Origin: Thermoanaerobacteraceae bacterium
GTDB taxonomy: Bacteria; Bacillota; JADQBR01
Length of the DNA: 64,000 nt
Assembly (NCBI GenBank): GCA_017656305.1
Contig: JACDOG010000002.1
Location: 104,121-168,120, forward strand
Direction: 5' to 3'
Under the pieces are notes generated by a model. The model did no database searches. It saw nothing but the letters and a program-made list of their open reading frames with translations, and had not been told where the DNA came from. A program made the translations under genes and the position numbers. This document shows, one piece after another, positions 44,287 to 52,831 of this stretch (positions within the stretch are counted from its first letter, which is position 1; each line of letters opens with the position of its first letter).

Positions 44287-44730
44287 ATGAGTGCAATTGA
44301 CCCTTACCAGGCCGGCATGTTCAAAAGTAATCCGTATGCCAAAAAAAGAGATATCCTTGGTTCACTGGTAGTGGTGCTGGACGGTCGTTTGGAGGAACGC
44401 AACCTCCAGTTGATTGCCCCCATTTCACGGGCGGTATTACAGGGCGAGATCCACGAGCTGATTTTAACTGATGAACCTGAGGTGGGGCCAAAGAAAAAAG
44501 TTAACAAAATTGCCTACCTGGGCTTTTTTGAGGTCAGCCAGGGTGGAGTCATGGTTGTTGGCGACGAACTGTCTGTGGCCGAGAAAAAAGTGGGGACCGT
44601 TGCCGGTTTTGATGAGACCCATATGCCCAATCATTTGAACATTATTATTGCTACCGATCAGCGAGTCAGCGGACTGGAAAGAGGACTGGAACTGGGCATG
44701 AAAATATGTTGCAGTAAAGCCAACGCATAA
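44287..44730 (+). CDS. Unrecognised conserved-looking 147-aa protein
   Basis: No family assigned. The protein is soluble and mixed alpha-beta: a strand LGSLVVVLDGR near residue 28, an amphipathic helix LQLIAPISRAVLQGEI, a lysine-rich turn near 67-72, strands VNKIAYLGFFEVSQGGVMVVGDE and a C-terminal helix ending in two adjacent cysteines (ICCSKANA). AAAGGAGGG precedes the ATG. It is first in a four-gene run with RidA, a PLP enzyme and a FAD enzyme, so it probably serves the same pathway. A domain of unknown function such as DUF6917 is a possibility from memory only. Confidence 0.6.
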   Translation: MSAIDPYQAGMFKSNPYAKKRDILGSLVVVLDGRLEERNLQLIAPISRAVLQGEIHELILTDEPEVGPKKKVNKIAYLGFFEVSQGGVMVVGDELSVAEKKVGTVAGFDETHMPNHLNIIIATDQRVSGLERGLELGMKICCSKANA

Positions 44731-44817
44731 TGTTGCCAGCAAAGAAAATAATAAACCAGGAAGATTATAAAAAAATTCAATATTTAAGTCAACAAGACCA
44801 GTGAAAGGAGGACGGAC

Positions 44818-45276
44818 ATGTCTTTTGAACAAAAAGTGCAGGAGTTGGGATTGACCGTCCCGGAGGCTCCCAAGCCCGTGGCAGCGTACGTGCCTGCTGT
44901 TAAAGTGGATAACTATGTGTACACAGCGGGTCAAATTCCGTTTGTCAACGGGGAATTAAAATACAAGGGTAAGGTAGGAAAAGACCTAACTTTGGAACAG
45001 GGATACGAAGCAGCAAAAATCTGCGCGCTAAACTGTCTGGCGGCAATTAAGGGTCAGATTGGCAGTCTGGACAATATTGAAAAGATAGTAAAAATTACTG
45101 GTTTTGTCAGCAGTGCTCCGGGTTTTAACGACCAGCCGAAAGTAATCAATGGCGCTTCAGAACTAATCGGCCAGATATTTGGCGAACAGGGCCAGCATGC
45201 CCGGGCGGCTGTTGGTGTCAATGAATTACCTGTGGATGCAGCAGTTGAAGTGGAAATGATAGTAAAAGTTAAATAA
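44818..45276 (+). CDS. RidA-family enamine/imine deaminase-like protein
   Basis: A 152-aa RidA/YjgF protein. The family hydrolyses reactive enamines and imines released by PLP or flavin enzymes. The sequence VDNYVYTAGQIPFVNGE, the trimer-core helix and the carboxylate-binding arginine (Arg129 in HARAAVGVNELP) with VEVE behind it are present, so activity is plausible. It is 14 bases before a PLP enzyme and in one operon with a flavoenzyme, the two enzyme types that make such intermediates. AAAGGAGG precedes the ATG. Confidence 0.88.
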   Translation: MSFEQKVQELGLTVPEAPKPVAAYVPAVKVDNYVYTAGQIPFVNGELKYKGKVGKDLTLEQGYEAAKICALNCLAAIKGQIGSLDNIEKIVKITGFVSSAPGFNDQPKVINGASELIGQIFGEQGQHARAAVGVNELPVDAAVEVEMIVKVK

Positions 45277-45289
45277 GGAGGTTCAATCA

Positions 45290-46750
45290 ATGGCTCACAA
45301 ATATAAGTTTCAAATGTACAAAGACCTGCATGCCAATATAGCCAATATTTATGCTGATTTACGGAAAGCGGCCGATGATATCGGTATTCCCCAGGATATA
45401 CGCGGCAAGTTTGGTTTGACCGGTGCCATTTCCGGATGCCCGGCACCGCTGCGCAAGGACATCCTGGAAGCCAGTGAAAAGGGAGCCAAGGAAGTTATTC
45501 CTCTAGCTATACTGATGGACCAGATTCGGGAACTGGTAAAGGAAGTATATGGCGACGAGTATGATGCAGCGGCTACCAGCACCTGTGAAGCGGCATTATG
45601 GGTAACTTTCGATGCACTGTTCACTCCGCCCATGCAGGGGCGCGGGGACAGTTACCGTGCGCGTTACATTGCGCCCTACGAAAAGCACCTGCATCACCAG
45701 GGCAGTTACGGGCGGCCATTCCCGGGAAGGTTTAAGGATATTTTTGCGGACAGGGGTTCAACACCAGGTGAGTTAGGCTTTTATGGCAAGAGACAGAATA
45801 ACACCGACACGGTAATAGTACCGCTGGAAGGTGCTGACTACAGCGTTCACGGTATCAAGTATCACCCCGTACCGTTGCTGACTGGCGTGGACCCGGAAGC
45901 TTCCATTGAAAAGATGGCGCTCCATGCTGAAATTCACGAATCTATGCTTACCGGATTCACCTCTTTGGGATATGAGACTCCGGGTTACGGTTACGGAGCT
46001 AAGGACGAAGACGGTACTCCGCTGCTTCAGAAATTTATTGCTGACCTGGCTCATTCCTACGACCTGCCGTACGTTGTGGACAATGCATGGGGATTGCCCT
46101 TTGTTGGTCATGACCCGAGAAAAAGCGGAGCAGATGTCATTGTCTACAGTATGGATAAGGCGGCGGGTGCTGCCACCAGCGGTTTGATTATCGGTAAGGA
46201 AGAGTTTATGGTACTCATTCGCCGGGCGCTGGGTATGCACGGAGACCGCTGGGGAACTCCTGCCAGCTACGGTAAGGCAGCTTATGTAACCTTTGACCCG
46301 GGTAAAGAGGCACTGTTAACTCAGGTGCAAACGCTGAAAGTGCTGAAAGACAATCCGGAAGTATTTACAAAACCGGTAGATGATTTGGAGCGGATTATCA
46401 AGGAAGAGTTTGAAGCTCTGGATCCCAAGCTCAGAGAAGGTATCATTATCAGCAAGTCTTATAACTCCAAGGCAGTGGAAATCAACTACGAAGGCACCTG
46501 GAAGGACGGTAAAATGGGCATCCCAATCTTCTCCATCGAAGATATGTATGCCGGTACCAACCTGATTCAGACCGGCCTCAAGCAGATGGGTGTCATCCCG
46601 ACGGTAGCCTATGACGGAAACATCTATATCTCACCTGACTTGGGAACTACTGACGAAAACGGGCAGTTAAAAGAAGACATTATGCGTTATGGTATCAAGG
46701 CACTGGTTAAGCTGATTGAAATTCTCTGCAAGTATGCCGGTGTTCTCTAG
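45290..46750 (+). CDS. Fold-type I PLP-dependent enzyme of unknown specificity
   Basis: A 486-aa soluble protein. A PLP site is readable: Asp264 in YVVDNAWG, placed to contact the pyridine nitrogen, and Lys290 in VIVYSMDKAAGAATSG as Schiff-base lysine. The first 130 residues contain a glycine/cysteine segment (GLTGAISGCPAPLRKD) and TSTCEAALWV in the cofactor-loop position. The C-terminal small domain runs from about 340. It does not match a named aminotransferase, decarboxylase or SelA-like enzyme that I can recognise. The adjacent RidA and flavoenzyme suggest amino-acid chemistry through an enamine or imine. AAGGAGG precedes the ATG. Confidence 0.75.
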   Translation: MAHKYKFQMYKDLHANIANIYADLRKAADDIGIPQDIRGKFGLTGAISGCPAPLRKDILEASEKGAKEVIPLAILMDQIRELVKEVYGDEYDAAATSTCEAALWVTFDALFTPPMQGRGDSYRARYIAPYEKHLHHQGSYGRPFPGRFKDIFADRGSTPGELGFYGKRQNNTDTVIVPLEGADYSVHGIKYHPVPLLTGVDPEASIEKMALHAEIHESMLTGFTSLGYETPGYGYGAKDEDGTPLLQKFIADLAHSYDLPYVVDNAWGLPFVGHDPRKSGADVIVYSMDKAAGAATSGLIIGKEEFMVLIRRALGMHGDRWGTPASYGKAAYVTFDPGKEALLTQVQTLKVLKDNPEVFTKPVDDLERIIKEEFEALDPKLREGIIISKSYNSKAVEINYEGTWKDGKMGIPIFSIEDMYAGTNLIQTGLKQMGVIPTVAYDGNIYISPDLGTTDENGQLKEDIMRYGIKALVKLIEILCKYAGVL

Positions 46751-46767
46751 GCAAAAGGAGGATTAGC

Positions 46768-48051
46768 ATGAAAATTGTTGTAGTTGGCGGTGGCTGGGCT
46801 GGTTGTGCAGCCAGCATTACGGCTAAAAAAGCCGGAGCTGACGATGTTACGCTGCTGGAACGTACCGATATGCTGTTGGGAACAGGACTGGTAGGCGGCA
46901 TTATGCGTAATAACGGCCGGTTTACTGCCACGGAAGAAATGATAGCCATGGGTGGTAGCGACATGTTTGCGGCTACTGATGAAAAAGCACGCCACACCAA
47001 CGTGGAGTTTCCCGGCCACAAGCATGCCAGCCTCTATGACGTGGCGGAAATAGAACCGGCAGTGAAGAAAAGACTGCTGGATGCCGGTGTCAACGTCAAA
47101 ACCAAAACCAGGGTAAAAAATGTGGAAACTGACGGCAAGCGCATCACGGCAGTGATAACGGATAACGGGGAACGCTACGAAGCAGATGTTTTTGTAGAAA
47201 CTACCGGTACTTCCGGGCCGCAGGGCAACTGTTCCAAATACGGCAACGGCTGTGCCATGTGCATTTACCGCTGCCCCACTTTTGGACCGCGGATTAGTCT
47301 CGCTGCTAAAGCTGGTGCCGAAGAATTCATGGGTAGAAAAGGAGACGGCTCCATTGGCGCCATGAGCGGTTCTTGCAAGCTGCATAAGGAATCGCTTGCG
47401 GAGGACATTGTGCACCAGTTAAATGAAACCGGCGTAGCCTTAGTACCCATTCCCGAACATTTACGAAAAGGTGAAGAGGCTTTGGCTACCAAGGCGTGCC
47501 AGCAGTATGCCCTGAAGGAGTTTGATGAAAACGTGATACTTCTGGATACCGGCCATGCCAAATTAATGGCGCCATTCTACCCGCTGGATACCCTGAGACA
47601 GATTCCCGGGTTTGAAAATGCCAGGTTTGAGGACCCCTATGCCGGCGGCATAGGTAACTCCATACGTTACCTGGCCATTTCCTATCGGGATAATACTCTC
47701 AAAGTGGAAGGACTGGAGAACCTGTTTTGCGGCGGTGAAAAAGCAGGGCTGTTGGTTGGCCACACGGAAGCGATCTGTACCGGTACTCTGGCCGGTCACA
47801 ATGCCGTACGTTATGCTGCCAACAAGGATCTCCTGACGCTGCCTGACAGTTTGGCAGTGGGAGATGCCATCAATTACGTGGGCCAGCAGATGCGTACGGA
47901 AGAGGGTATTACCAAGAAATACACGTTCTCCGGTTCCGTATATTTCAACAGGATGAAGGAGAAAAACCTGTACACTACCGATATCGATGCAATAAAACAA
48001 CGGGTTGAAAGTGCCGGGCTGACCAACGTCTTCAGCCAGCCCGTAGTTTGA
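46768..48051 (+). CDS. FAD-dependent oxidoreductase (MnmG/TrmFO-like fold) with cysteine cluster
   Basis: A 427-aa flavoprotein. The FAD fold IVVVGGGWAGCAASITAKKAG starts at residue 3 and the second FAD contact is FCGGEKAGLLVGHTEAICTGTLAGHNAV near 320-345, as in the GidA/TrmFO group. Between them Cys155-x6-Cys162-x2-Cys165-x3-Cys169-Pro looks like a [4Fe-4S] site, unusual for that fold and arguing against a tRNA-modifying role. It is the last gene of the RidA-PLP operon and may oxidise an amine or amino acid to an imine. AAAGGAGG precedes the ATG. Confidence 0.75.
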   Translation: MKIVVVGGGWAGCAASITAKKAGADDVTLLERTDMLLGTGLVGGIMRNNGRFTATEEMIAMGGSDMFAATDEKARHTNVEFPGHKHASLYDVAEIEPAVKKRLLDAGVNVKTKTRVKNVETDGKRITAVITDNGERYEADVFVETTGTSGPQGNCSKYGNGCAMCIYRCPTFGPRISLAAKAGAEEFMGRKGDGSIGAMSGSCKLHKESLAEDIVHQLNETGVALVPIPEHLRKGEEALATKACQQYALKEFDENVILLDTGHAKLMAPFYPLDTLRQIPGFENARFEDPYAGGIGNSIRYLAISYRDNTLKVEGLENLFCGGEKAGLLVGHTEAICTGTLAGHNAVRYAANKDLLTLPDSLAVGDAINYVGQQMRTEEGITKKYTFSGSVYFNRMKEKNLYTTDIDAIKQRVESAGLTNVFSQPVV

Positions 48052-48068: not shown

Positions 48069-48098
48069 CCGGTACTCGAAAGCGAGTACCGGTTTTTT
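48069..48098 (+). terminator. Terminator of the RidA-PLP-FAD operon
   Basis: A perfect 10-bp stem CCGGTACTCG / CGAGTACCGG with an AAAG loop, followed by six T residues, 17 bases after the stop codon. Confidence 0.92.
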
Positions 48099-48149
48099 GG
48101 ACAAAATTCGCTAAAATTCGAGGAATTTTTAACTTAAAGGGCCTGTTAG

Positions 48150-48333
48150 AAAAGTATTACGTCGGTTTACGAAAACATTCACTCGCTGGCCGCAATAGCA
48201 CAGGAAAACGGTGCGGCCACGGAGAAAATGAGTGCCATGGTTACGGAATCTCGGATAGGGTCAAGGAATGAGCGGATACATCGAGCGGCTTGAGGACCTG
48301 TCCGGCGAATTCGAGGAAGACCGGCAGTATTAA
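48150..48333 (+). pseudogene. Remnant of a methyl-accepting chemotaxis protein, C-terminus
   Basis: One frame from 48150 reads VYENIHSLAAIAQENGAATEKMSAMV, the end of a chemoreceptor signalling domain, then turns into nonsense and stops. A second frame from 48274 reads YIERLEDLSGEFEED and ends in TAA at 48331-48333, where a terminator starts. A small deletion of receptor sequence with frame change best explains this. No start codon, ligand domain or hairpin tip remains, so it is not functional. Confidence 0.75.
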
Positions 48334-48350
48334 AGCTGCCGGTTCTTTTA
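48320..48350 (+). terminator. Terminator of the chemoreceptor remnant
   Basis: ACCGGCAG and CTGCCGGT pair across an 8-base loop holding the old stop codon, then TCTTTTATTT. It survives from the intact receptor gene. Confidence 0.7.
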
Positions 48351-48351
48351 T

Positions 48352-49149
48352 TTAGGTAAACAGATTTGTGTTTAACATGGCAATTTGTAAGGACTGTTTG
48401 GAACTGACCTGCTTCAGCAGCTGCCTGTGCTGGGTGTGATTTCCCAGACTGACCAGCTGTCTAAAATTCCTTGGGGCTACTTTTTCAGCAGTAACTTGCC
48501 ATTTGTTCAGGCGTTGCTCTAGCAGGGACGGTAACTGCAGGCAGGAAATTGTCACTGCACTTCTGGCAAACCGTTTTGCCACCGGTTCTACTAGCAGTTT
48601 GCCAAAGTTGGATGCTACAATCAGGGTATTATGGGCGGGGGTTAATTTGTTCAAACTCAGGACTGAGGGTTGATTGGAAAGTCTGATTGTCAAGCGCTTG
48701 TTCTGCTCGAGGAAATATTTTTCCCGTACCGAGTATACGTTCAAGGCCAAAATTACTAGGTTCTGACCGGGGAAACAATCCACTACCACGCCGGGAATGC
48801 TGACGTACTGCGGCTGCTGGTAGTGTACCAGGTGAACTGTGGTCATGGGGGATAGAGAATTTATTAATGAAGAAGCGGTAAAAGCAAAATACAACATGCC
48901 GGTGCCCGGAAAATGAAAGCTTTTAACATGTTGCACGCAGGTTTCTTTTAGGTGCGGCGGCTGTACCGGGTTCTGAAACTTGAAATCCATGTAGACGCAC
49001 CTTCCTGCCCAGTTGCAGTCGTTGCAGTCAGCGGAATTTCCCAAATAACTGCAAATTGGGCAGTAATTAACCTGCGCCAAGACGCACGGACATTTATTGG
49101 TTTCAAAGTCGGCACAAAGTTCCCGGGTAAATGACCTTTTTACCCGCAT
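48352..49149 (-). CDS. Cysteine-rich protein, possibly related to ferredoxin-reductase-type electron carriers
   Basis: A 265-aa protein I do not recognise firmly. The first 52 residues hold nine cysteines (C-x7-C-x-C, then CPIC, CNDC and single cysteines), enough for metal or cluster binding. From about residue 60 the pattern of strands (MTTVHLVHYQQPQYVSIPGVVVDCFPGQNLVILALNVYSV) recalls the flavin barrel of ferredoxin-NADP reductases, but the FAD-binding RxYS/T motif and an NAD motif are not convincing. AAGGAG precedes its ATG. It is a lone minus-strand gene between two operons. Confidence 0.55.
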   Translation of the reverse strand: MRVKRSFTRELCADFETNKCPCVLAQVNYCPICSYLGNSADCNDCNWAGRCVYMDFKFQNPVQPPHLKETCVQHVKSFHFPGTGMLYFAFTASSLINSLSPMTTVHLVHYQQPQYVSIPGVVVDCFPGQNLVILALNVYSVREKYFLEQNKRLTIRLSNQPSVLSLNKLTPAHNTLIVASNFGKLLVEPVAKRFARSAVTISCLQLPSLLEQRLNKWQVTAEKVAPRNFRQLVSLGNHTQHRQLLKQVSSKQSLQIAMLNTNLFT

Positions 49150-49705: not shown

Positions 49706-49954
49706 GTGAGCAAGTTGTTGGACTATGTCATGGACGCCTTGGACGTGGAGACGTTCCTGATATGCGATACGGAAGAGGAAGGACGCACCCTGGTGCTGGA
49801 ACTGATGAAAGAAATGGGATTTAGCGATATAGATGTTATCAACCTGGATTTTCAGGGGGTAGGAGCCCGTGTGAGAGTGCGGGCTTACATTCACCGCTCC
49901 GGGGATGAGTACGGTTGGCTGCAGTTGGATGGGGAGGCGAATGCCAATGGGTGA
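49706..49954 (+). CDS. 82-aa small partner of the B12 mutase-like protein
   Basis: A small acidic protein. It has an N-terminal helix, VETFLICDTEEEGRTLVLELMKEMGFSDIDVIN and a strand pair GVGARVRVRAYIHRSGDEYGWLQL. GTG 49706 follows AAGGAGGAG; a longer reading from 49622 runs through the upstream repeat and is rejected. The segment with LELMKEMGF and the strands after it faintly recalls the N-terminal dimerisation part of KamE (lysine 5,6-aminomutase beta), which the downstream fusion protein lacks. It overlaps that gene by 8 bases, so a complex is likely. No firm family. Confidence 0.55.
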   Translation: MSKLLDYVMDALDVETFLICDTEEEGRTLVLELMKEMGFSDIDVINLDFQGVGARVRVRAYIHRSGDEYGWLQLDGEANANG

Positions 49955-51776
49955 GAAGAAAAAAGTATTGCTGGCACCGTTTGATCCGGTTCATGACATC
50001 GGACTGAAGATGATCCGGCGTGGTTTGGAGGAAGCGGGTCATGAAACATACCTCCTGCCTCCTGACCTGCCTGCGGAGGAAATTGTCCAGGCAATCATGG
50101 ATAAAGAAGTGGATATGGTACTTATCAGTAGAACGCTGGGCTATGGTGTTGCCGAGCTCCTGTCCCGCTTTGCAGACCTGGTGGATGCCGCCGGTTTGCG
50201 TGACAAGGTGACTTTGGGAATAGGCGGTATGGCTATACGGCCCGAGCTGGCCGCAGAACTGGGCTTTGACGCCGGCTTCGGACCCGGCACAACCGTGGAA
50301 GAAGCCGTGGCTTTTGTTGAGGGGCGGGAATATAAAAAAGACGATGCCGGAGTCAAAAAGGAAAAACAGGATATCACCAGCGGCTATTCGTACAAGTTTG
50401 TCAATGAGAGACTGGGTGAAAAACTGGAACGGGTTGTCGATTTAATAGAACAATGGGTTAAGGATAAAACCAGCCCCGGGGTAAGAAGGGCGGTTGCCAG
50501 GGAAGAACTGTGGGATGTGGACCGCTGGCGCAACCGTGAAGGTAATCCCGAGTTTGACAAGGAGTATCCGCAGCTGTGCGGTGAGCAGCCGAAAAACTTT
50601 TATTTGAAGGGTGAACTGCACCCCAAAACCAGGCGCTTTACCAGAGAGGAAGTTAGGGCGCTGGAGGAATTCTTGGAGGAAACCAAGCAGCGGATAGTAT
50701 TAAATAAAGTACAGCACACCAGGGAGCGTCCCGTAGTTTTCAACCAGTACGGGACCGGCTGTCCCTTTATGGATATCGGGCATATCAAGGTCAGTGAAGC
50801 CTGGGGCGCCGACGGGGTGGTGCATTTTGACCCGTCCTGGGGAGCCAGAACTGAAGGGTTCTTTGACGGCTTCCTAACCCACCAGGAGGACGGTACGGTT
50901 ATTACTCCGGCAAATCTCAACCGGATTCATGCGGCACTGGAACCGTCAACCCTGTGGCAGGTACGGGCGCACCGGGGTTTAAATACTCCGGAGACCGTGG
51001 TGCTGGCCGGGAAAATTGGCGCTGACATGACCAAAATCAACATCTCTTACGGTTCCCTGAGTGCGGGGACGGATCCGGAACGGCTAACTGTGGACGGCTA
51101 CTATGCCATGCGGTACGCGGCCAAATACAATATGCCCTTTGACGTGGTTACCAATGAAGAACTAGCAGGGGTTCCGGCTCATAAGGCCTTTGCCGGCATG
51201 TTAATCGTGGCCACCCTTGGTATTCGACTGGGAGGCAGGCCCATACTGCAGCCGCTTTTTGCCTATTCTCCCGAGGCCATGATTGGTGAACAGATGGAAG
51301 ACAACTACGTGGACTTTAATGCGGCAAAAATCTATGCCCTGAAAAGCATCATTGACGCGCCCATTTGGCCGGGAGCACCTATCGGCTTTCTAACACAGAC
51401 GGAAGACCGGGTGCAGTCTTCCATGACTACGGGACTGCATGCGTGCCTTGCTGCTTCCCTGGGTGTTGACGCCATTTCCATAGCGTCCTCCGATGAGGCG
51501 TATTCCGGCGGGCCTATTGCTGTGCCTTCACGCACGGACACCTTACAGGCAGTTCAGGAAGGCTTTCGTTTTTTCGGTTCTACGGGTATCAGCCCGTCGG
51601 ATAACGCCAGGAAGTGGGGCGAAGAAATGGTAGTGCAAATTGAGCGGGTAGTTGATGATGTCATCAAAATGGGAGATTTTGTCCAGGCTCTGTATGAAGG
51701 CGTGTTGGGTACTCGTGAAGAGGGTGCTTACCCCGGAAGAACCGGCAGAGGAACAGTGGAAACCTCGGTGGATTAG
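49947..51776 (+). CDS. Cobalamin-dependent aminomutase-like protein, KamE-type B12 domain fused before a KamD-type barrel
   Basis: A 609-aa protein. Residues 5-125 are a B12-binding domain close to KamE/OraE (AGLRDKVTLGIGG, ELGFDAGFGPGT), with His16, Gly19 and Ser61 in the ligand-loop positions; the aspartate is three instead of two residues before the histidine. Residues about 150-600 resemble KamD (TEGFFDGF, NLNRIHAAL and a TIM-barrel pattern). OraE has the opposite domain order. The family's PLP lysine, 11 residues after the histidine, is Leu27 here. Substrate unknown; aminomutase or other radical mutase chemistry is inferred. ATG 49947 follows GGGGAGG. Confidence 0.75.
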   Translation: MGEKKKVLLAPFDPVHDIGLKMIRRGLEEAGHETYLLPPDLPAEEIVQAIMDKEVDMVLISRTLGYGVAELLSRFADLVDAAGLRDKVTLGIGGMAIRPELAAELGFDAGFGPGTTVEEAVAFVEGREYKKDDAGVKKEKQDITSGYSYKFVNERLGEKLERVVDLIEQWVKDKTSPGVRRAVAREELWDVDRWRNREGNPEFDKEYPQLCGEQPKNFYLKGELHPKTRRFTREEVRALEEFLEETKQRIVLNKVQHTRERPVVFNQYGTGCPFMDIGHIKVSEAWGADGVVHFDPSWGARTEGFFDGFLTHQEDGTVITPANLNRIHAALEPSTLWQVRAHRGLNTPETVVLAGKIGADMTKINISYGSLSAGTDPERLTVDGYYAMRYAAKYNMPFDVVTNEELAGVPAHKAFAGMLIVATLGIRLGGRPILQPLFAYSPEAMIGEQMEDNYVDFNAAKIYALKSIIDAPIWPGAPIGFLTQTEDRVQSSMTTGLHACLAASLGVDAISIASSDEAYSGGPIAVPSRTDTLQAVQEGFRFFGSTGISPSDNARKWGEEMVVQIERVVDDVIKMGDFVQALYEGVLGTREEGAYPGRTGRGTVETSVD

Positions 51777-51778
51777 CC

Positions 51779-52831
51779 ATGGCACTGCGTTACCAGGTTA
51801 TTGGTATTGCCGGCACTGCCAAAAACACGGGGAAAACTACCACCACCAACTTTTTGCTGGAACAATTAAAGGAAAGGGGATTGGTCCCCGGGTTGACCAG
51901 TATCGGGTATGATGGTGAACGGCTGGACAACGTCACCGGTTTGCCGAAGCCGCGCATTCCGGTCGATCCCGGTACCGTGGTGGCGGTTGCTTGCCGGTGC
52001 CTGCCCGTCAGTACGGCCCAGGTTGAAGTAATGGAGGAGACGGATATCGGTACTCCGCTGGGCAGCGTCGTGTTGGGAAAGGTTACCGGGGCGGGACAGG
52101 TGGTGGTGGCAGGCCCCAACAAGAGCAGCGGGCTGCGAGAGGTGCTGGAGAAACTGAAAAAGCTGGGGCCGGATCTGATCCTGGTGGATGGGGCATTAAA
52201 CCGGCTGGCCCCCATGATTGAAACCCAGGGCTTCATTCTTGCAACCGGTGCTGCACGTACTGCGGACATCACCCGTCTGGCCTATGAGACGCACAGTCTG
52301 AATTACCTTTTTAACTTCCCGCCAGCGTCAGATAACAACAGGTATTCTTCAGTGACTCTGGTCACTGGCGAAAAAAGGCACCAGTTTAACTTCAGTTCCA
52401 TCTTTACTTCCGGCCAGCTGGGCGAAGTGATAGAAAGGCTGTCTGTGGAAACGCAAAAAATTATCATACCCGGTGTGGTGCGGGAGGAACTGTGGAAACA
52501 GCTGGGAAAGGAGTTAATGACGGCCGGCATTAGTCCCGTAATTTGTGTATCCGATCCCATCAAACTGGCTCTGGCGGGTAGTGTGGGCAACCTGCACCGG
52601 TTGTTTGAGGAACTGGAAGAGAAGGGTATTAGGATTGAGGTAAACCGGCCCCTGCCGCTGCTGGCTATTACCGTAAATCCTTTTTACCCGAAATACCGTT
52701 TTGAGGTTGAAGACTATGAACCGGCCTATATCGATGCCGGGCAGCTGCTCAGTGCTATTAGAAAGGTAGTAACCGTTCCTGCTGTTGATGTTAAACAAAA
52801 CGGGAGGGACTTGATGAAAGTGCTGCTGTAA
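51779..52831 (+). CDS. KamB-like reactivase P-loop protein
   Basis: A 350-aa protein with Walker A GTAKNTGKT (residues 12-20), LTSIGYDGERLDNVTGLPKPRI, and LILVDGALNRLAP. This pattern resembles KamB, one subunit of the factor that exchanges damaged cobalamin in lysine 5,6-aminomutase; the memory-based match is moderate. It starts 2 bases after the mutase gene and is surely co-expressed. No KamC-like second subunit is seen next to it, so it may work alone or with a partner elsewhere. Confidence 0.68.
   Translation: MALRYQVIGIAGTAKNTGKTTTTNFLLEQLKERGLVPGLTSIGYDGERLDNVTGLPKPRIPVDPGTVVAVACRCLPVSTAQVEVMEETDIGTPLGSVVLGKVTGAGQVVVAGPNKSSGLREVLEKLKKLGPDLILVDGALNRLAPMIETQGFILATGAARTADITRLAYETHSLNYLFNFPPASDNNRYSSVTLVTGEKRHQFNFSSIFTSGQLGEVIERLSVETQKIIIPGVVREELWKQLGKELMTAGISPVICVSDPIKLALAGSVGNLHRLFEELEEKGIRIEVNRPLPLLAITVNPFYPKYRFEVEDYEPAYIDAGQLLSAIRKVVTVPAVDVKQNGRDLMKVLL

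Follow-up and report, generated by a model that had tools for sequence, protein, structure and literature searches.

A rotated cassette for a probable cobalamin-dependent mutase

A 64,000-nucleotide stretch of a Thermoanaerobacteraceae genome (contig JACDOG010000002.1; hereafter the window) carries at positions 49706-52831 a cassette of three genes, whose products are two proteins of 82 aa and 609 aa and a KamB-type reactivase. We consider, with moderate confidence, that the 82-aa and 609-aa proteins together form an adenosylcobalamin (AdoCbl)-dependent radical mutase that belongs to the KamDE/OraSE/GlmES superfamily, has the module order D|B-S-T and works without pyridoxal phosphate (PLP). 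The use of AdoCbl by such an enzyme would be very likely. This proposal builds on what is directly observed: the architecture of the proteins, the homology of their modules, the reactivase match, the loss of the known PLP ligands and a conserved gene set.

All three genes lie on the + strand and are tightly packed. The 82-aa gene (49706..49954) has a GTG start and a Shine-Dalgarno sequence (AGGAGG), the 609-aa gene (49947..51776) overlaps it by 8 nt and the reactivase gene (51779..52831) follows after 2 nt, the largest gap in the cassette. Inspection of the open reading frames and ribosome binding sites confirmed the coordinates and content given for these genes in a preliminary description of the locus. 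The 350-aa P-loop protein that the description had called a KamB-like reactivase passes the KamB model NF052386 (231.9 bits against a cut-off of 210). A KamB-versus-KamB profile comparison was left out because its comparison set contained members of the mutase-cassette family itself.

As had been proposed, the 609-aa protein begins with a KamE/OraE-like B12-binding Rossmann domain, which we call module B (residues 1-125, 49947..50321). It matches PF02310 with 58 bits and KamE with an hhalign probability of 99.5, and its best NCBIfam matches are KamE (52.8 bits) and OraE (43.6 bits, confined to this domain, against an equivalog cut-off of 800). Corrinoid proteins such as MtgC also match it, with 39 bits. 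The domain carries the invariant motif DPVHD(V/I)(G/A), in which the Asp stands at H-3 whereas in the canonical DxHxxG it stands at H-2. D13, H16, D17 and K21 are invariant in the 58 family members, and His16 is predicted from the sequence to be the cobalt ligand.

Beyond the B12 domain the window's 609-aa protein has no match in Pfam or NCBIfam, PF09043 included. Nevertheless, two further modules could be assigned by comparing profiles, each comparison being accompanied by 40 column-shuffled controls, all of which were outscored in every module assignment. Residues 148-190 (50388..50516) form a helical "KTSPGVxRA" segment, module S, which resembles OraS and the N-terminus of KamD; it scored 43.8 against OraS (shuffled maximum 22.8), and PF16552 weakly matched it in 4 of 46 family members. 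The remainder (residues 191-609, 50517..51776), module T, is a KamD-like TIM barrel, the predicted site of the radical chemistry. Its profile aligned to that of KamD over residues 158-605 and 412 columns with a score of 53.0 (shuffles: mean 18.1, maximum 29.5), and similarity to the GlmE profile was weak and confined to the C-terminal half of the protein. A Foldseek search of the PDB with an AlphaFold model built on a 46-sequence alignment (pLDDT 89.3, pTM 0.84) returned KamD first (1xrs_A, E 4.5e-16), followed by OraE (5e-11), GlmE (7e-11) and then acyl-CoA mutases. The KamD-like barrel that the preliminary description had placed after the B12 domain is thus supported, and the best alignment is not with an unrelated barrel. 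By sequence alone, a PDB profile search found no significant match for the barrel (KamD, E 0.34) and was uninformative on the small subunit. The pairing of a B12 Rossmann domain with a mutase barrel, by which members of the superfamily are recognised, is present in the 609-aa protein according to PF02310, AlphaFold and Foldseek.

On remote homology and predicted structure, from which the barrel too was assigned, the 82-aa protein (module D) corresponds to the KamE/OraE dimerisation domain, here encoded by a gene of its own. Its five best Foldseek matches were OraE and KamE (best E 0.0097), and its profile aligned to KamE residues 24-62 with a score of 39.1 (shuffled maximum 23.0). PF16554 weakly matched 26 of 49 relatives of the protein (best member E 0.0005; the next family matched five); the window's own protein, at 13.6 bits, stays below the gathering score of 25, but fold and profile comparison back the domain. 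What had been described as an 82-aa flanking partner can accordingly be given a more precise identity. A relationship to OraS, also considered for this protein, was rejected (hhalign probability 0.2).

Module order compared with known enzymes

Letting D stand for the dimer domain, B for the B12 domain, S for the OraS-like helices and T for the barrel, the known enzymes read S-T|D-B (KamDE) and S|T-D-B (OraSE) and the enzyme of the window D|B-S-T. The three layouts are rotations of one cycle, S-T-D-B, opened at different break points, and some evolutionary route may connect them. The B12-first arrangement had been called an inverted domain order; the B12 domain does come first, but since the four modules share one cycle the order is better termed rotated than inverted.

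KamDE with KamB is one of the closest known systems: KamD has the nearest solved barrel fold, KamE the nearest B12 domain, and the dimer domain, the TSP-ER helical segment and the reactivase type are the same. It differs in its order (S-T in the alpha subunit, D-B in the beta subunit) and in having both the PLP-lysine insertion and the phosphate loop. OraSE likewise combines barrel and B12 domain in one chain and has a small partner subunit, but that partner is OraS (module S) instead of module D, and Lys629 is present. GlmES, the third-ranked fold group, is an AdoCbl-dependent TIM-barrel mutase without PLP, as we propose for the window's enzyme; its subunits are separate, however, and it has neither the dimer nor the TSP-ER module. 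The reactivase of GlmES is MutL/GlmL. A search of the genome with TIGR01503 (GlmE) did not match the 609-aa gene; it identified a conventional glutamate mutase E subunit encoded separately (G000:C6:10616-12043).

We found no name for the rotated enzyme in Pfam or NCBIfam, and no description of it in the open-licence PMC literature on DUF6917, aminomutase operons, diaminopimelate catabolism with B12 or KamB; within these sources, the earlier supposition that the fusion had not been named held. Few AdoCbl-dependent mutases are known. A conserved rotated family that spans several phyla and in which no PLP site can be recognised would mean that the scaffold of the B12/PLP aminomutases also occurs in a PLP-free form, and would be a natural comparison case for the domain-swing models of AdoCbl catalysis.

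The PLP site and a proposed mechanism

In KamDE and OraSE the PLP is held by Lys144/Lys629 of the B12 domain, and the barrel contributes Arg184, Gly187-Gln188-Ser189, Arg268, Ser238, Tyr263 and Asn299 as ligands (PMC3958899). In the 609-aa protein, alignment with six KamE and six OraE sequences placed the insertion site of the PLP lysine at the junction Ile23/Arg24 (50013..50018, + strand), where the insertion is missing. The deletion is common to 58/58 family members, as judged from an alignment of ten of them with KamE and OraE and from the preceding motif and its spacing, which are invariant in all 58. In the barrel, where residue equivalences were taken from profile alignments with KamD and OraE rather than from superposition of models, Asp295 (50829..50831, + strand) occupies the position of the phosphate ligand Arg184, and neither the GQS motif nor Arg268 is retained. 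The stacking Tyr263 has a counterpart in Tyr368; the invariant Arg343 stands in the place of Ser238. Further invariant residues of the barrel are R301, R340, H342, R379, R488, H279, H312, H498, K363 and K413.

As both halves of the KamDE/OraSE PLP site are missing, the label "aminomutase" originally given to the cassette is doubtful and could not be established. Given the PLP site, the subunit layout and scores below the equivalog cut-offs, the enzyme should not be filed as a lysine or ornithine aminomutase. The sequences suggest instead, with reasonable probability, that the enzyme is a PLP-independent AdoCbl radical mutase resembling glutamate mutase. AdoCbl would then bind base-off/His-on through His16, and a swinging movement of the D and B domains would bring it above the barrel, so that the 5'-deoxyadenosyl radical could abstract a hydrogen from the substrate. 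As in glutamate mutase, the substrate, tentatively an amino acid carrying two or more carboxylates, would not be bound through a PLP aldimine; the invariant R301, R340, H342, R343, K363, K413 and R488 would hold it. Damaged cofactor would be exchanged by KamB.

Distribution and conserved gene set

Full-length homologues of the 609-aa protein were found in 38 of 398 Bacillota genomes and in three further genome sets, each named after the phylum of the metagenome-assembled genome (MAG) used as its centre: 9/103 for the Thermotogota MAG, 4/50 for the Atribacteria MAG and 8/395 for the Ignavibacterium MAG. Named isolates, e.g. of Desulfosporosinus, Desulfotomaculum and Desulfovirgula, also carry them. 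The small gene lies upstream of the mutase gene in 54 of 58 loci, and the reactivase gene downstream in 54 of 58. Since full-length homologues recur across Bacillota and the three other sets, the layout of the cassette is not due to chance.

The three genes had been thought to make up a complete enzyme set, but they do not, because four more genes at 44287-48051 on the + strand belong to the conserved set. These encode a DUF6917 protein (44287..44730; PF21891, E 2.8e-49), an imine/enamine deaminase of the RidA family (44818..45276; PF14588, PF01042), a 486-aa PLP-dependent protein of the type I aminotransferase fold (45290..46750; weak matches to Aminotran_5, SelA, DgaE and Cys_Met) and a FAD-dependent oxidoreductase with a GidA-like N-terminus (46768..48051; PF01134, E 8.5e-36). 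Among the 56 loci tabulated, the PLP enzyme was present in 46, DUF6917 in 43, a FadR-type regulator in 36, the FAD enzyme in 34, and RidA and a permease in 23 each. In the set of 398 Bacillota genomes, each of the 38 mutase carriers also encodes DUF6917. The only further genome to do so is G386, whose RidA-DUF6917-FadR-permease group reaches the contig end; DUF6917 is therefore a near-obligate partner of the mutase. We found no paper on DUF6917 in the open-licence PMC literature, and the association gives this family a functional setting in a gene set that suggests an as yet uncharacterised pathway of amino-acid metabolism in anaerobes.

Substrate clues

The cluster probably degrades an amino acid. 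The product of the mutase would be oxidised by the FAD enzyme together with RidA, or in other phyla by an enzyme of the meso-diaminopimelate dehydrogenase type (Ddh), and the PLP enzyme with DUF6917 would then process the oxidised product, although these downstream steps could follow a different order. A Ddh gene lies upstream of the cassette in 9/9 Ignavibacterium-phylum loci, which have neither FAD enzyme nor RidA, and also occurs in three Thermotogota loci and one Atribacteria locus; it is not beside the cassette in the window genome. The Ddh of one Ignavibacterium locus aligned over its full length (E 7e-117) with 3wb9, a solved meso-diaminopimelate dehydrogenase of the Symbiobacterium type. 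Ddh passed the TIGR01921 cut-off in four genomes, and in all four it adjoins the cassette. RidA and Ddh were never found in one locus (RidA in 0/13 loci with Ddh and 23/43 others; Fisher 3e-4, uncorrected for kinship), which would fit two routes for one deamination.

A DapF gene is likewise found at all nine Thermotogota loci, at one Atribacteria locus (L027) and in one Bacillota genome (G001). In G398 and G001 it is a second copy besides the canonical one, and the two cassette copies group together (96/91 support). Each of the 12 genomes searched carries a DapF, and in G399 the cassette copy is the only one. The substrate could tentatively be placed among the amino-dicarboxylates, as the invariant Arg/His set of the barrel would suit a molecule with more than one carboxylate. 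The best single guess is diaminopimelate or a derivative of it, a doubtful assignment held low because the lineage of the window lacks these neighbours and because the cassette DapF of G399 is the only one of its genome. It is more speculative still that a PLP-free AdoCbl mutase opens an undescribed anaerobic route for the degradation of diaminopimelate or a close amino dicarboxylate, forming a link between the aminomutases that use PLP and the carbon-skeleton mutases that do not. In that event the diaminopimelate could come, for example, from the peptidoglycan of dead cells.

Alternative readings

Several points tell against a PLP-free mutase acting on such a substrate. At 20% identity the barrel is a distant relative of KamD in sequence, and its profile scores against OraE and GlmE are barely above the shuffled controls. 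The canonical DxHxxG is altered to DPVHD, so that the binding mode given for the cofactor is a prediction. The mutual exclusion of RidA and Ddh has no phylogenetic correction. The guess at the substrate draws on other lineages, because beside the cassette the Bacillota loci, that of the window included, lack Ddh and, with the exception of G001, also DapF. Finally, the loss of the known PLP ligands would be compatible with PLP bound at a new position, on Lys363 or Lys413. With its PLP lysine relocated to one of these positions of the barrel, the enzyme would still be an aminomutase that needs both PLP and AdoCbl, and its reaction would be a 1,2-amino shift. KamD as the closest fold, the retained stacking tyrosine (Tyr368), the resemblance of cluster members to amino-acid enzymes and the invariance of both lysines, which AlphaFold predicts at a strand end (Lys363) and a helix start (Lys413), would all agree with it. 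However, the PLP-lysine insertion, Arg184, the GQS loop and Arg268 are missing altogether, and we regard a relocated site as unlikely.

PLP-free eliminations of amino groups by AdoCbl enzymes do exist, e.g. in ethanolamine ammonia-lyase, and the presence of RidA in 23/56 loci would suit an eliminase of the ammonia-lyase or dehydratase type whose enamine product RidA clears. Yet the nearest folds are mutases and the reactivase is of the KamB type, not of the EutA/diol-dehydratase type, making an eliminase improbable. The 39-bit matches of the B12 domain to MtgC and similar proteins would be accommodated by a non-radical corrinoid methyltransferase or a B12-binding sensor; the KamB partner, the KamD-like barrel and the OAM_dimer-like partner speak against either, the recurrent neighbours included no recognised methyltransferase family, and this reading is very improbable. 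A separate question concerns the substrate only. It is quite conceivable that Ddh and DapF are displaced lysine-biosynthesis genes, uninformative on the substrate of the mutase, as all 12 searched genomes have a DapF and the sole copy of G399, that of the cassette, may serve biosynthesis. Against this, the cassette DapF of G398 and G001 is distinct from the canonical copy, and Ddh stands beside the cassette at each of the nine Ignavibacterium-phylum loci and in every genome where it passes TIGR01921.

Additional features of the locus and its relatives

The DUF6917-to-FAD group is separated from the mutase cassette by 1654 nt. A terminator-like hairpin follows the FAD gene (48069..48098, + strand; a 10-pair stem and then TTTTTT, by consensus match only), and the arrangement suggests two transcription units. 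A frame-broken remnant at 48140-48345 (IHSLAAIAQENGAATEKMSAMVTES), whose translation reads like the tail of a methyl-accepting chemotaxis protein, occupies the slot of the permease gene in the relatives L066 and L072. Between the two gene groups, a gene at 48352-49149 on the - strand encodes a cysteine-rich 265-aa protein conserved in seven loci (cluster 14). A search for a cobalamin riboswitch gave no Rfam match of any kind between 40000 and 56000 of the window and, in the loci of seven relatives, only RNase P and a T-box; a plasmid search had no match.

A parallel with the ornithine pathway was dropped, as hhalign gave no signal for DUF6917 against OrtA or for the PLP enzyme against OrtB. 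Only for Ord of the OraSE pathway did the comparison show a remote homology, to the Ddh that adjoins the cassette in other lineages (probability 95.5). Upstream of the cassette, loci L028 and L191, from the Thermotogota and Atribacteria MAG phyla, have sets that read like FAD/iron-sulphur amino-acid or amine dehydrogenases, together with an Asp/Glu-racemase-like gene. In G302 (L243, G302:C1:1560000-1576000) a FadR-DUF6917-PLP-FAD-permease group stands without an adjoining mutase, two mutase cassettes lying elsewhere in the genome. The genome of the window also has a second full cassette (L065, G000:C3:181600-201500) with DUF6917, FAD enzyme, RidA, PLP enzyme, reactivase and two permeases; its mutase, at G000:C3:191596, is 66% identical to that of the window and possibly acts on a different substrate.

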